Shown piece by piece: positions 15,436 through 47,334 of a DNA stretch of 64,000 nucleotides (within the stretch, counting starts at the first letter, position 1; every line of letters begins with the position of its first letter). Location of the stretch: assembly GCF_900094595.1 (NCBI RefSeq), contig NZ_FMAD01000003.1, positions 248,001 to 312,000 on the forward strand, read 5' to 3'. Position numbers and translations under genes: made by a program. Source of the stretch: Cupriavidus alkaliphilus. GTDB lineage: Bacteria > Pseudomonadota > Gammaproteobacteria > Burkholderiales > Burkholderiaceae. Under the pieces are notes generated by a model, which was not told where the DNA came from, did no database searches, and saw only the letters and a program-made list of their open reading frames with translations.

Positions 15436-15511
15436 TTGTGTTCCGCCATCCATCGCCCTATGATTTGCCGACCGAATTACGGAACCTTGGTTCCAAAAAA
15501 CGGAACCAAGG
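15436..15511 (+). promoter_or_regulatory. iclR promoter with palindromic operator
   Basis: TTGTGT at 15436-15441, a 17-bp spacer and TATGAT at 15459-15464 make a good sigma-70 promoter. A perfect 14-bp palindrome, GGAACCTTGGTTCC, lies at 15481-15494 just past the expected start of transcription, and a further half-site GGAACCAAGG at 15502-15511. This position suits autorepression by the IclR protein encoded next. Confidence 0.75.
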
Positions 15512-15535
15512 CAACGAACGTAGCGGAGAGGCGAA

Positions 15536-16324
15536 GTGAGCATTCTTGAAGGCGTGGAGAGCGTGCTGGACTTGTTCGGGCACGGCCGCCACGAGATCAC
15601 GTTCAACGATGTGCTGGATGAGCTGGGCCTGGCCAAGAGCTCGGCGTCGCGCCTGCTCGCACAGATGGTGCGCTACCGGCTGCTGGAGTTGCAGCCATCG
15701 ACGCGACGCTATCGCCCAGGCGCACTGGTGATCCGCGCGGCACAGGCCGCCACGCAGGCGCACCCCTTTGACGACCAGTGCCGCGAGATCCTCGCCGCCT
15801 TGTCGGATTCGACTGGCTTCACGGCCTACCTTTCGATGCTCGACGGCACCGACACCGTGGTGCTGCAGCGCCTGAATGGCAGCAACCCGGTGCAGGTGCT
15901 GTCGCCGCCGGGCGCGCGCCGCCCGGCCTTCACCACGGCCATGGGCCGCGTGCTGCTGTCGCGCCTGTCCGAGACCGAATTCAGCGCGCGCTACGGCGCC
16001 ACCGGCGCCCGCAAGCTGCCCGACGCACCCGCCGGATGCCCCGCCACCGTAGCCGAGCTGCGCGAGCGCGTCGCCACGGCCCGCGCCGAGCGCAGCGCCA
16101 TCGCCGTCAACGAAGGCATGCCGGGCATCGGCGCCGTTGCCACCACGCTTGCGGATCCGCTCTCTGGCGACGTGCGCGGTCTGTGTCTGTCCTTCACCGC
16201 GATGCAGGTCAGCCAGGCCCAGGCCCGCGCGCTGCGGGAAACGCTGGTGCAGGCGGTGGCGCCGCTCGGGCAGCGCCTCGGCGATCCGCTCTGGCTCCAT
16301 CCCGGCGACGCCGCCGCCCACTAG
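15536..16324 (+). CDS. IclR family transcriptional regulator
   Basis: 262 residues. N-terminal winged helix-turn-helix (about residues 5-60, with LGLAKSSASRLLAQM as recognition region) and C-terminal IclR effector domain with the usual FTTAMGRVLLSRL and IAVNEGMPGIGAVA segments. It begins with GTG, preceded by GGAGAGG. It probably controls the four genes after it, which encode a dipeptidase, two proteins of unknown role and a periplasmic binding protein. The effector would then be a substrate or product of that set. Repressor or activator cannot be decided from sequence. Confidence 0.93.
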   Translation: MSILEGVESVLDLFGHGRHEITFNDVLDELGLAKSSASRLLAQMVRYRLLELQPSTRRYRPGALVIRAAQAATQAHPFDDQCREILAALSDSTGFTAYLSMLDGTDTVVLQRLNGSNPVQVLSPPGARRPAFTTAMGRVLLSRLSETEFSARYGATGARKLPDAPAGCPATVAELRERVATARAERSAIAVNEGMPGIGAVATTLADPLSGDVRGLCLSFTAMQVSQAQARALRETLVQAVAPLGQRLGDPLWLHPGDAAAH

Positions 16325-16358
16325 TCATCCCGGCAGCTCAAACCGCCAGCTCGAACTC

Positions 16359-17075
16359 ATGGAACTCCTGTTACTCAGCAACTCCTCCAGCGACGCGGGT
16401 TACCTCGTCCATGCCCACGACGCGATCCGCGAACTGGCCGACGGGCGCACCCGTGCCTGCTTCCTCCCGTTCGCCGGTGTCACGCGCGACTGGGACAGCT
16501 ACGAAGCCCTGGTGCGCGAGGCACTGGCCCCGGCCGGCATCGCCGCGCACTCGCCGCACCGGCTCGACCATGCGGATTGCGTGCGGGCGGTGGCAGCGGC
16601 CGAACTGATCGTCATCGGCGGCGGCAACACCTTCCGCCTGCTGCAATGCCTGCGCGCGCGCGGCCTGCTGCCGGTGATTGCGCGCCAGGTGGCCGCGGGC
16701 GCCGCGCGCTATATCGGCTGGAGTGCCGGCACCAATGTCGCCTGCCCGACCATCCGCACCACCAACGACATGCCGGTCGCCGACCCTGGCGGCCTCGACG
16801 CGCTCGGGCTGGTGCCGTTCCAGATCAACCCGCACTACTTCAACCTGGTGGTGCCCGGCTTCCGCGGCGAAACGCGCGACCAGCGGCTGGCCGAGTTCAC
16901 GGTGCTGCAGCCGCAGACGCCGGTGCTGGGCTTGCCCGAAGGCAACTGGGTGCGCGTCTCGGGCGATCGCATGGAGATGGGCGGCGCGCATCGCGCACGC
17001 TGGTTCCTTGGCCGGCAGATAGTGGACGTCGCCCCCGGCGCACTGTCCGTGCCGGCCTGTACCGCTGCCATCTGA
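16359..17075 (+). CDS. pepE: PepE-type dipeptidase (peptidase family S51)
   Basis: 238 residues, the usual length for alpha-aspartyl dipeptidase PepE. The nucleophile elbow GWSAGTNV holds the catalytic Ser, and a conserved INPHY segment downstream supplies the likely His. VIGGGNTFRLLQ is the family's substrate-pocket strand. Peptidase E cleaves dipeptides with N-terminal Asp. The precise specificity here is not certain because S51 relatives differ. It starts 34 bases after iclR and 42 before the DUF1177 gene, so the run is probably one transcript. Confidence 0.88.
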   Translation: MELLLLSNSSSDAGYLVHAHDAIRELADGRTRACFLPFAGVTRDWDSYEALVREALAPAGIAAHSPHRLDHADCVRAVAAAELIVIGGGNTFRLLQCLRARGLLPVIARQVAAGAARYIGWSAGTNVACPTIRTTNDMPVADPGGLDALGLVPFQINPHYFNLVVPGFRGETRDQRLAEFTVLQPQTPVLGLPEGNWVRVSGDRMEMGGAHRARWFLGRQIVDVAPGALSVPACTAAI

Positions 17076-17117
17076 TCCATCGCCATCCCGTAACGCAAGC
17101 AAGGAACCCCAAGCAAG

Positions 17118-18041
17118 ATGTCCATCAAGCAGGTGATTGAATCGATCGAGCTGCTGTCCGCGGCCAACGTCGACGGCGCAGCCGTTGCCACTTTGCTGCG
17201 CGCCCGCGGCATCCGCGACGTCACGGTGACGCGCGTGGAAGAGAACGGCCTCTACACCGACTTCCTCGCCTGCACCCTGCCGGGCCGCGACCCCGATGCG
17301 CCCGCGCTGGGCGTGGTCGGCCGCCTCGGTGGCGTCGGCGCGCGCCCGGCCGTGACCGGCCTGGTGTCCGATGCCGACGGCGCCATCGTTGCCGTCGCCA
17401 CCGCGCTCAAGCTGGCCGACATGGCCGCCGGCGGCGATGTGCTGGCCGGCCCGGTGCGGATCCATACCCACATCTGCCCGCACGCCGCGACGCGGCCGCA
17501 CCAGCCGGTGCCGATGATGAAATCGCCCTTCGCCATGCGCACGATGATGTCGCACGAAGTGCATCCCGACATGGCAGCGATCCTGTCGGTCGACACCACG
17601 CGCGGCAACCGCTTCGTCAACCGCCGCGGCGTGGCGCTGACGCCGGTGGCCAAGCAAGGCTGGCTGTTGCGCCTGCCGGAGCGGATGCTGGACCTGCTGG
17701 GCTGGGTCAGCGGCGAACTGCCGTCGGTGCTGCCGCTGACCACGCAGGACATCACCCCGTATGAGAATGGCCTGTGGCATGTCAATTCGATCATGCAGCC
17801 GGCCATCGTCACCGCGGCGCCGGTGGTGGGCGTGGCAATGACCGCGCAGACCACCGTGCCGGGATGTGCCACCGGCGTCACCAACGCCTTCGACATCGAT
17901 GTGGCGACACGCTTCTGCATCGAGGTTGCCAAGCAGTTCGGCGAGGGCCAGTGCGCCTTCTTCGATGCCGAGGAATGGGCCGAGCTGCAGCGGCGCTACG
18001 GCTCGCTCGCGCACCTGCAGACCGTCGGGACCGAAGCATGA
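17118..18041 (+). CDS. DUF1177 family protein
   Basis: 307 residues. The whole protein reads as the DUF1177 family, which has no established function. Notable conserved-looking points are GVVGRLGGVGARPAV, a His-rich THICPHAATRPHQPVP segment that could bind metal, SHEVHPDM, and TTVPGCATGVTNAFDID near the C-terminus. No signal peptide or membrane helix, so it is cytoplasmic. Its stop overlaps the next start (ATGA), showing translational coupling with the AroM-family gene. With PepE and AroM neighbours, an enzymatic role in peptide or amino acid breakdown is a reasonable inference. Confidence 0.85.
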   Translation: MSIKQVIESIELLSAANVDGAAVATLLRARGIRDVTVTRVEENGLYTDFLACTLPGRDPDAPALGVVGRLGGVGARPAVTGLVSDADGAIVAVATALKLADMAAGGDVLAGPVRIHTHICPHAATRPHQPVPMMKSPFAMRTMMSHEVHPDMAAILSVDTTRGNRFVNRRGVALTPVAKQGWLLRLPERMLDLLGWVSGELPSVLPLTTQDITPYENGLWHVNSIMQPAIVTAAPVVGVAMTAQTTVPGCATGVTNAFDIDVATRFCIEVAKQFGEGQCAFFDAEEWAELQRRYGSLAHLQTVGTEA

Positions 18042-18745
18042 CCACAGCCGCCCCACGCCTGCCGCGCGTGGCCTTCGTCACCATCGGGCAGTCGCCGCGA
18101 ACCGACGTGGTACCGCAGATGATGGCCGACCTGGGCCTGCCGGCCGAAGTCGAAGAATTCGGCATCCTCGACGCGCTGGGCCCCGACGAGATCGCCGCGC
18201 TGGCGCCCGCCGCCGGCGAGTACCGCTTCGCCAGTCGCCTGCGCGACGGCACGCAGGCGGTGATGGGCAAGCCGGTGGCCGAGGCCATGCTGGCGCGGCT
18301 GATGGCCTCGCTCGACGATGGCCGCTTCGACGCGCTGGTGCCGCTGTGCACCGGCACCGCGCTGCCGCCGATGCGCACGCTGGTGATCGAGCCGCAGCAG
18401 GTGGTCGATCACCTGACGGTCGCGCTTGGCCAGGGATGCAAGCGGCTCGGCATCGTGCTGCCCCTCGAGGGCCAGGCCGACAGCTTTCATCTGATCAAAC
18501 CGGTGTCCTGCGAACTGCGCGTTACGCATGCCTCGCCTTATACCGATCCTGGCACCGGCGGCTTCGCTCGCGCCGGCCAGGCCCTGCGCGGCTGCGATCT
18601 GGTGGTGATGCACTGCATGGGCTACACCGAGGCGATGCGTGCCGAAGTCGCGCACCATGCCCGCGCCCCGGTGCTGCTCTCTAACCGGATGGTGGCCACG
18701 CTGCTCGGCCAGGTGCTGGATGGCCGCGGCCGAAATGGCCTGTGA
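18038..18745 (+). CDS. AroM family protein
   Basis: 235 residues. It opens with RVAFVTIGQSPRTDVVPQM, the AroM family signature, and has a PLCTGTALPP segment and HCMGYTE near the end. The pattern of two Cys-bearing loops recalls the aspartate/glutamate racemase superfamily, to which AroM is distantly linked. The E. coli AroM protein has no established function despite its name. Coupled to DUF1177 through an ATGA overlap. A racemase, lyase or isomerase acting on a peptide breakdown product is possible but unproven. Confidence 0.85.
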   Translation: MTTAAPRLPRVAFVTIGQSPRTDVVPQMMADLGLPAEVEEFGILDALGPDEIAALAPAAGEYRFASRLRDGTQAVMGKPVAEAMLARLMASLDDGRFDALVPLCTGTALPPMRTLVIEPQQVVDHLTVALGQGCKRLGIVLPLEGQADSFHLIKPVSCELRVTHASPYTDPGTGGFARAGQALRGCDLVVMHCMGYTEAMRAEVAHHARAPVLLSNRMVATLLGQVLDGRGRNGL

Positions 18746-18811
18746 AATTGCTTACGGGTAAAGGCAAGCCCGCTGACAGATTGCCTGTGACACAGCTGGA
18801 GTGGAAGTAAC

Positions 18812-19804
18812 ATGGAAAAGGTGGCGAAGTGGATGGGACCGCTGCTGCGCGGCATGGCTTGCATGAGCCTGGTTGCGGTGGCGGCGTCGGGCGCGCATGC
18901 GCAGGAATGGAAGCCCGCGAAGCCGGTGCGGCTGCTGGTCGGCTTTGCCCCGGGCGGCTCCGCCGACCTGCTGGCACGGCTGGTGCAAGGTCCTTTGTCA
19001 GAAAGCCTCGGCGTGCCGGTGGTAGTCGAAAACGTGCCGGGCGCGGGTGGCAATATCGCCGCCGACAAGCTGGCCAAGGCCTCGCCGGACGGCTATACCA
19101 TCGGCATGGGCGCAGCTGGCGCGATGGCGGTGACCCACGTGCTCAACCCGAAGGGCACGCCGTACAAGGCCGATGACTTTACCCCCATTGCCATGCTGGC
19201 GACGCAGCCCAACGTGGTGATCATCAACCCTGCGCTACCGGTCAAGACGATGGCGGACTTCACCGCGTACGTGAAAAAGACACCGCAGGTCACCTATGGC
19301 ACCGCGGGCGTCGGCACGTCGAACCACCTGATCGCCGAGACCATGCTGCATCGCCTCGGCATCGACATGGTCCACGCGCCGTACAAGGGCGCCACCCCGG
19401 TGATCACCGATCTGATGGGCGGCCATATCGCCATGACCGTCGACAACATCACCACCGCCGCGGCGCTCGCCAAGAGCGGCAAGGTCAAGGCGCTGGCGGT
19501 CACGGGCAGCAAGCGCTCGCCGTTGCTGCCCGACGTGCCGACGCTGGCCGAAAGCGGCCTGAAGGATTTCAACATGCCGACCTGGCAAGGCATCTTCGGG
19601 CCCAAGGACCTGCCGAAGGCGATCGTGGCCCGCTACAACCAGGCCCTGGTGAAGGCGCTGGCGAATCCGGAAGTCAGGAAGAAGATGGCGGAGTTCGGCT
19701 CGGAACCGGTCGGCGACACCCCGGAACACTTCGCCGGCTTCCTGGCGCAGGACCGCAAGATGTGGACCGAAGTGATCAGGACGGCGAAGATCACGCTCGA
19801 GTAA
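18812..19804 (+). CDS. Bug/TctC-type periplasmic binding protein
   Basis: 330 residues. Sec signal peptide ends near AHAQE (about residue 30). The mature start KPVRLLVGFAPGGSADLLARL is the hallmark of Bug receptors, which are hugely expanded in Burkholderiales and bind carboxylates, amino acids or amides with high affinity. No TctA/TctB membrane partners are next to it, as is common for orphan Bug proteins. Its position after iclR-pepE-DUF1177-aroM suggests it captures the compound that this module handles. GGAAG precedes the ATG. Confidence 0.92.
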   Translation: MEKVAKWMGPLLRGMACMSLVAVAASGAHAQEWKPAKPVRLLVGFAPGGSADLLARLVQGPLSESLGVPVVVENVPGAGGNIAADKLAKASPDGYTIGMGAAGAMAVTHVLNPKGTPYKADDFTPIAMLATQPNVVIINPALPVKTMADFTAYVKKTPQVTYGTAGVGTSNHLIAETMLHRLGIDMVHAPYKGATPVITDLMGGHIAMTVDNITTAAALAKSGKVKALAVTGSKRSPLLPDVPTLAESGLKDFNMPTWQGIFGPKDLPKAIVARYNQALVKALANPEVRKKMAEFGSEPVGDTPEHFAGFLAQDRKMWTEVIRTAKITLE

Positions 19805-47006: not shown

Positions 47007-47334
47007 GGGACGCTCACTTTTCTCCGGGTCTGCCGGAGTTCAGCGGGTTATTCAACCTTCCGCGACACGGCTTGACCGGTTAGCGGATCGCAAACAACTC
47101 TTGGGAGCCAGGGGAGGCACTTACGCAAACGGCACCACCAGGGTGCCGCATGTGATGGCCGCCTCACAAGGCCCGAAAGGGCAAGTTGTGCGGGGAAGGA
47201 CCTTAAGTCTTCACGGCGGTAAGGATAGCACGGATTGCGTTTGATCAATGTGGACTTTTCGCGATACGAAACACAACCGCGCGACAATTCCAACCGTGTT
47301 CAGCGAATTCGCAACAGCCTCACAACAATCCGGA
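47007..47334. other. Leader and promoter region of odhA
   Basis: 328 bases between odhA and the end of ugpQ. It must hold the odh promoter and a 5' UTR. A TTGATC/TATCCT pair occurs on the minus strand near 47222-47248 but with only a 15-bp spacer. No riboswitch fold or coding sequence seen. Confidence 0.4.

Follow-up and report, generated by a model that had tools for sequence, protein, structure and literature searches.

A five-gene Cupriavidus operon that joins DUF1177 and AroM in a probable variant of an uncharacterised peptide or cyclic-amide salvage module

What would a bacterium gain from an operon that sets two families without an assigned role, DUF1177 and AroM, between a dipeptidase and a periplasmic binding protein? 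The question is raised by positions 15436-19804 of a 64,000-nt window (the whole stretch of DNA analysed) from Cupriavidus alkaliphilus, whose genome measures 6.1 Mb. The region holds five intact open reading frames (ORFs), all on the + strand, in the order iclR, pepE, DUF1177, aroM and bug/tctC, and the five co-directional genes with ATGA coupling described in an earlier note on this DNA were confirmed by the ORFs, by Pfam and by the overlap itself. The best description of the operon is a compact form, of the Cupriavidus type, of a module for peptide or cyclic-amide salvage that is widespread and uncharacterised. More specifically, and with about even confidence, we read it as a substrate-induced operon for salvage, which would take up an Asp-containing peptide, or a cyclic or epimerised form of it, and hydrolyse it.

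The DUF1177 gene (17118-18041, +; Pfam DUF1177, PF06675, 1.6e-118) and aroM (18038-18745, +; Pfam AroM, PF07302, 1.7e-61) overlap by the ATGA at 18038-18041. This joint recurs in related cassettes, with DUF1177 ending in CATGA in 16 of the 18 cassette loci that keep aroM (a set that includes two repeat fetches of the same contigs) and in CATAAG in the other two. The order IclR-PepE-DUF1177 is also found in loci L003-L013 and L016, 11/12 of which are titled Cupriavidus and one (L012) "Burkholderiaceae bacterium 16", as well as in the more distant L014 and L015; the closest of the 22 named loci retrieved with the window's DUF1177 are mostly Cupriavidus by name. Linkage of the genes in other genomes had been set beforehand as the test that could refute the earlier note, and the idea survives it: AroM was found within 8 kb of DUF1177 in 26/43 non-redundant loci when all ORFs were counted, which is the figure used here, and in 23/43 in the non-overlapping gene set. 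AroM lies on the same strand and 3' of DUF1177 within 1.1 kb in 22/43 loci and within 190 bp in 20/43, and in L138 an M29-like gene stands between the two.

These 43 loci were drawn from 180, of which 78 were 5.5 kb or longer and carried a DUF1177 ORF of more than 240 amino acids, and 43 remained below 80% identity; the short loci of about 3.8 kb, copies that were split or fragmentary, and the fragment-only genomes G609 and G679 were omitted. The sample is uneven, combining three phylum draws with named relatives and plasmids, and since 8/43 loci have a flank shorter than 6 kb on at least one side, the neighbour counts are lower bounds. A quick tree of the 43 loci, in which 11/40 branches were starred as firm and L168 was very long, gave 10 changes for AroM, 7 for OPT and 11 for ABC.

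The pairing was also seen in wider surveys. Few genomes of the window's own phylum carry DUF1177 (3/398, one being the window's own), against 14/398 for AroM, and all three DUF1177 genomes hold AroM directly beside a DUF1177 copy; the chance probability of three such genomes is 3.5e-5, one of them being the window's own and a second from the same genus. Within the genus DUF1177 was present in 30/60 genomes, in the phylum of a Bacillus sp. locus (L021) in 28/249 and in the phylum of a Bathyarchaeota locus (L024) in 13/151. Among 14 named control genomes, Haloferax volcanii had both families, Sulfolobus acidocaldarius DUF1177 only and E. coli AroM only. DUF1177 was found on 7/72,556 plasmid records, and among the six opened, AroM adjoins it in four of the five with a gene table, the Planococcus plasmid table listing no AroM beside DUF1177; in the Niallia plasmid region, which has no gene table, AroM was detected by homology scan. 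On a Klebsiella pneumoniae plasmid typed as conjugative (L029, 6559-11966), an IclR-OPT-DUF1177-AroM-PepE-racemase module is flanked by transposase genes, which makes horizontal movement possible, and on a 44.7-kb Paenibacillus plasmid (L030, 1021-18927) an IclR-Dpp-M20-DUF1177-AroM module adjoins phage tail genes.

The genes that accompany DUF1177 within 8 kb, labelled by phmmer with 26 seeds, several of which were checked with Pfam, point to uptake and cleavage of a peptide-like compound. Besides AroM, the 43 loci contained an Asp/Glu-type racemase in 19, DUF917 in 16, a Dpp-type permease or binding protein in 13, an M29-like peptidase in 12, OPT in 11, M20 in 6, PepE in 5, and Bug, hydantoinase and cytosine permease in 4 each, with peptidase genes in 22/43 loci overall. 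An importer (OPT, Dpp, Bug or cytosine permease) was present in 22/26 AroM-positive versus 7/17 AroM-negative loci, and a peptidase in 18/26 versus 4/17. OPT and Dpp were never found together (0/43; Fisher p 0.019), as expected for alternatives doing one job, and AroM co-occurred with DUF917 (p 0.009) and OPT (p 0.029); its association with a second racemase (p 0.13) or with Dpp (p 0.51) was not significant among these loci, all five values being uncorrected for kinship or number of tests. A fairly constant core combined with a changing importer and peptidase is what one would expect if the pathway salvages a peptide-like compound.

AroM belongs to the Asp/Glu/hydantoin-racemase superfamily, as the earlier note had suspected from its resemblance to Asp/Glu racemases. 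By hhalign it matched the Asp/Glu racemases of the fetched loci at 97.2% probability (E 4.7e-11), with 11 other family profiles at 0.5% or less, and a profile search of PDB sequences gave hydantoin racemase 2eq5 at 2.2e-4. The same chain was the top Foldseek match (5.4e-6) of a confident AlphaFold2 model (predicted local distance difference test, pLDDT, 95.4), with query TM-scores of about 0.5-0.6 among the best 50 of 931 rows, and the protein passes the NCBIfam AroM/PRK10481 model (220.6 against a cut-off of 198). Likeness to the superfamily (PF01177) thus extends from profile to fold and to two conserved cysteines, Cys104 and Cys193, whereas AroM forms a separate Pfam family. Among 51 distinct AroM copies linked to DUF1177, meaning that a DUF1177 match lies in the same fetched locus, and many of which are close kin, C104 was kept in 51, C193 in 49 and both in 49, the two copies with Ser in place of C193 both coming from the archaeal phylum. 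From their position, C104 and C193 would be equivalent to the catalytic cysteine pair of the superfamily. In contrast, 7/11 distinct unlinked copies carry Ser at the first cysteine, and all seven fall in one family (f18) of the sample from the window's own phylum. The aroL-aroM unit of E. coli was reportedly sequenced in 1986, and AroM is said to have been named since then with no function assigned.

The DUF1177 protein has a less familiar sequence. Across 44 aligned members, 24 columns are invariant, including R69, R76, D85, T117, D159, N164, D211 and H221. The His/Cys-rich segment that had been pointed out in it is real (residues 116-128), and T117 (44/44), H118 (42/44), C120 (39/44) and H128 (41/44) are conserved in it, but H116 (2/44) and H122 (5/44) are not. 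Among the residues that might contribute to a five-residue two-metal site of the M28/M20 kind, D85, D159 and H221 are invariant, and H118, C120, H128 and E147 are kept in 39-42/44. The structure model is confident (pLDDT 93.8), and its predicted fold resembles zinc aminopeptidases of the M28, M17 and M20 types and DapE: among the best 50 of 1369 rows, it matched the M28 Streptomyces griseus aminopeptidase 1qq9 (9.2e-9), the DapE catalytic domain 4onw (9.1e-7) and many M17 chains, at query TM-scores of only about 0.5. It has no significant profile match to those enzymes, and searches of the PDB with its sequence and its profile returned no significant match. The M20 alignment pairs VSDADG of DUF1177 with ASDMKC of M20, which is suggestive and not significant, so that membership of M20 is not claimed; assignment as a metallopeptidase by sequence was tried and rejected, and for want of a profile relation we write of an aminopeptidase-like fold rather than of a peptidase. 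One DUF1177 copy (L050, G424 C2:1408411-1409214) contains an in-frame TAG and may be a decaying gene, and in L155, L156 and L157 DUF1177 lies between two ABC-ATPase genes and AroM was not seen, which may reflect another role for the family.

The flanking enzyme and binding protein suggest what kind of compound might be handled. PepE (16359-17075, +; Pfam Peptidase_S51, 9.9e-54) passes the NCBIfam PepE equivalogue model with 297.9 bits against a cut-off of 156, and its closest solved relative is the Salmonella-type aspartyl dipeptidase 1fy2 (3.1e-67). It keeps the triad positions S122, H159 and E194 and the GETRxQR segment, a motif check found the pattern in 31/32 distinct PepE copies of the fetched loci, and Ser122-His159-Glu194 is its probable triad, in keeping with the Ser-His-Glu triad of Salmonella PepE given in the available text of PMC9239234. 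The window's PepE is thus like the Salmonella alpha-aspartyl dipeptidase of family S51 and differs from it in setting, its gene sharing an operon with those for a regulator, DUF1177, AroM and Bug. The Bug/TctC-type periplasmic binding protein (18812-19804, +; Pfam TctC, PF03401, 1.2e-69) has an N-terminus that by eye resembles a signal segment; its nearest solved chains are 2dvz and the terephthalate-binding proteins 8hka, 8hk9 and 8hkb, with BugD 2f5x at 1.2e-55.

A dedicated local regulator for the operon is likely, judging from the letters upstream. The iclR gene (15536-16324, +) has a GTG start and encodes an IclR-family protein (Pfam IclR helix-turn-helix 1.7e-9, IclR_C 1.2e-17) whose top subfamily model, PcaR/PcaU/PobR, scores 71.9 bits, far under the cut-off of 284.75. 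It is preceded on the + strand by promoter-like hexamers read from the sequence, TTGTGT (15436-15441) and TATGAT (15459-15464), with a 17-bp spacer; TTGTGT agrees with the -35 consensus at only 3/6 positions, a consensus promoter scan reported no site by its rule, and both hexamers are found again in several Cupriavidus loci and differ in others. A predicted IclR operator (15481-15507, +) follows, consisting of the palindrome GGAACC-N2-GGTTCC at 15481-15494, with the sequence GGAACCTTGGTTCC, then AAAAAA and a third half-site, CGGAACC (half-site 15502-15507), so that two ACGGAACC copies are spaced 21 bp, or two helical turns, apart. With small variations this triple half-site precedes the cassette in 20/20 fetched loci by pattern search, of which 18 are distinct and most belong to one genus (L176 and L180 are refetches of the L013 and L012 contigs); the variants include AGAACC in L009 and a palindrome one base shorter in L014 and L015. 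The exact GGAACCNNGGTTCC occurs at two places in the 6.1-Mb genome, compared with one for a reversed control pattern, and its sole copy besides the operator lies at C20:454391-454404. An IclR protein and a conserved upstream palindrome are thus both present, as would be expected of an IclR-regulated operon, and the regulator with its own operator proposed in the earlier note gains support from them.

Taken as a salvage operon, the locus could work as follows. IclR would probably repress its own operon from the operator just 3' of the TATGAT hexamer, and in the periplasm Bug would bind a small ligand, either a carboxylate or something peptide-like, with a membrane partner presumably encoded outside the operon. 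In the cytoplasm, PepE, to judge from its intact active site, would hydrolyse a dipeptide with N-terminal L-Asp, and AroM, given its family, would invert or isomerise the compound or its product for use. DUF1177 might act alongside them by hydrolysing the same compound, for instance by opening a cyclic or blocked amide; this is the weakest step of the scheme. In other lineages the DUF1177-AroM pair would be served by OPT or Dpp ABC importers together with M29-like and M20 peptidases.

Several results weigh against this scheme. Profile comparison of DUF1177 by hhalign with M28, M42, M17 and M20 profiles built from 11, 21, 25 and 9 sequences of the fetched loci gave probabilities of 0.3% or less, and the 44 DUF1177 members had no match to any Pfam peptidase family at E values up to 1. 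In 17/43 DUF1177 loci, some with short flanks, no AroM lies within 8 kb. Two Cupriavidus species, C. numazuensis (L010) and C. yeoncheonensis (L011), retain iclR, pepE and DUF1177, whereas aroM and almost the whole of bug have been lost, apparently by deletion, the start of aroM in L011 abutting DNA for the last 66 Bug residues in a different frame; apparent deletion scars lie at 10880-11060 in L010 and 10880-11180 in L011. A second DUF1177 cluster in the window's own genome (L088, 5231-12186, C9) comprises IclR, OPT, a class V aminotransferase, a PepE-like S51 peptidase, a porin and DUF1177 and has no AroM, the genome's one AroM being that of the window; clusters like it were seen elsewhere in the genus (L089, L171, L173-L175). 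That PepE turns up again next to a DUF1177 which has diverged speaks for a link between these two, and it shows that AroM is not obligatory. Moreover, with terephthalate binders among its nearest solved relatives, Bug may have a ligand that is no peptide. The idea of a peptide or amino acid module holds for the setting, which combines peptide import with peptidases, and less well for the two Cupriavidus loci without aroM and most of bug.

How much of this was already in print? A literature search found no characterised pathway with this gene set, in line with the earlier note, which knew of none; PMC11055893 was the sole relevant paper. Its available text describes 274 cyclodipeptide oxidase (CDO) clusters, most without a cyclodipeptide synthase (CDPS), with hydantoin racemases, DUF917, AroM, OPT and Dpp transporters and peptidases enriched around the CDO genes. 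As most of the wider gene set is already listed there, the neighbourhood is not wholly undescribed, and as the same paper states that predicted AroM structures are nearly identical to hydantoin racemases, that likeness is not new either. DUF1177 has no occurrence in the main text of PMC11055893, and the search for its name returned only a passing and seemingly unrelated mention in the accessible part of an article on Arabidopsis E3 ligases (PMC4738358); DUF1177 as a partner of AroM was not found named in print. The non-CDPS CDO clusters, as that text presents them, share with DUF1177 loci the surrounding AroM, hydantoin racemase, DUF917, OPT/Dpp and peptidase genes in both bacteria and archaea. 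In addition, CDOB (PF19585) was found in 2/17 DUF1177-bearing genomes or records, both times inside the neighbourhood (L144, L166), and nitroreductase-family genes, the CDOA kind, in 4/43 DUF1177 neighbourhoods. The window differs in having PepE and Bug where CDO clusters have M29, DUF917 and OPT/Dpp; its own genome gave no CDOB match, and the five operon proteins gave no Nitroreductase Pfam match.

Different chemistry could account for the same neighbours. The available text of PMC11055893 proposes hydantoin or allantoin metabolism, or new metabolites, for its clusters, and DUF1177 might likewise belong to hydantoin, allantoin or other cyclic-ureide metabolism, whether in nucleobase breakdown or for a secondary metabolite, with PepE and Bug as late additions in this lineage. 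The DUF917, racemase and HyuA/B-like (4/43) genes among the companions would fit, as would PucR-type regulators in 9/43 loci (one representative Pfam-checked) and, in two genomes that lack DUF1177, AroM placed by homology scan near HyuA-, DUF917- and SBP5-like genes (L092) or near DppF- and DUF917-like genes (L091). However, the importers are mostly of the peptide type, peptidases are common, and by Pfam the window operon has neither DUF917 nor a hydantoinase, so that we consider this reading rather unlikely. The substrate might instead be a carboxylate or amide other than a peptide. Bug and IclR would suggest an aromatic or dicarboxylic compound, and AroM would resemble a maleate isomerase or an arylmalonate decarboxylase in its action, and not a racemase. 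Enzymes of both kinds, 4fq7 and 2vlb respectively, are among its fold neighbours, and the terephthalate-binding relatives of Bug and the sub-threshold PcaR/PcaU/PobR match lean the same way. Arylmalonate decarboxylase, however, uses one cysteine where linked AroM keeps two, the aspartyl-dipeptidase site of PepE is intact and the wider neighbourhoods are peptide-like, which leaves the non-peptide reading improbable.

An Asp-directed site in PepE would also suit the breakdown of a toxic aspartyl compound, in which the S51 peptidase, AroM and DUF1177 would inactivate an imported microcin C-like inhibitor, and an OEP/HlyD/MFS efflux triplet does lie just 5' of the operon. The consulted portion of PMC9239234 reports that MccG S51 peptidases cleave processed microcin C, but also that overexpressed E. 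coli PepE gives no protection and that the MccG clade differs from Salmonella PepE; the window protein is of the PepE kind by sequence, and a high-affinity binding protein would favour uptake. We regard this possibility as very remote. Within the salvage of an Asp-containing peptide or its cyclic form, which remains our preferred reading, a bolder version can be stated. To our knowledge, few enzymes that open the diketopiperazine ring have been recognised. Those peptidases that are reported as tested in the available text of PMC3852281 did not cut the rings of cyclic dipeptides. DUF1177 might then be a new amide-ring opener, with the fold of an aminopeptidase and a rebuilt active site, that together with AroM as an epimerase forms the core of a widespread, importer-independent salvage of cyclic or epimerised dipeptides (diketopiperazines such as cyclo-Asp-X), with PepE, M29-like or M20 enzymes finishing the work; this we hold to be unlikely.

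On the opposite strand 3' of the operon lie genes for a YgaP-like protein, truB, infB and nusA, and elsewhere in the window a SucA RNA motif (RF01070) was detected at 47011-47093 (-) with 87.9 bits.

Finally, the evidence links DUF1177 with AroM, two families with no known role, and connects both with the import and cleavage of peptides, in bacteria as well as archaea. Because linked AroM copies are of the two-cysteine kind and most unlinked copies have Ser at the first position, solitary AroM may be a poor model for the family. One small operon with a proposed operator thereby offers a place to test what DUF1177 and AroM do, and if the ring-opening reading were true, it would fill in enzymes that are missing from the breakdown of cyclic dipeptides.

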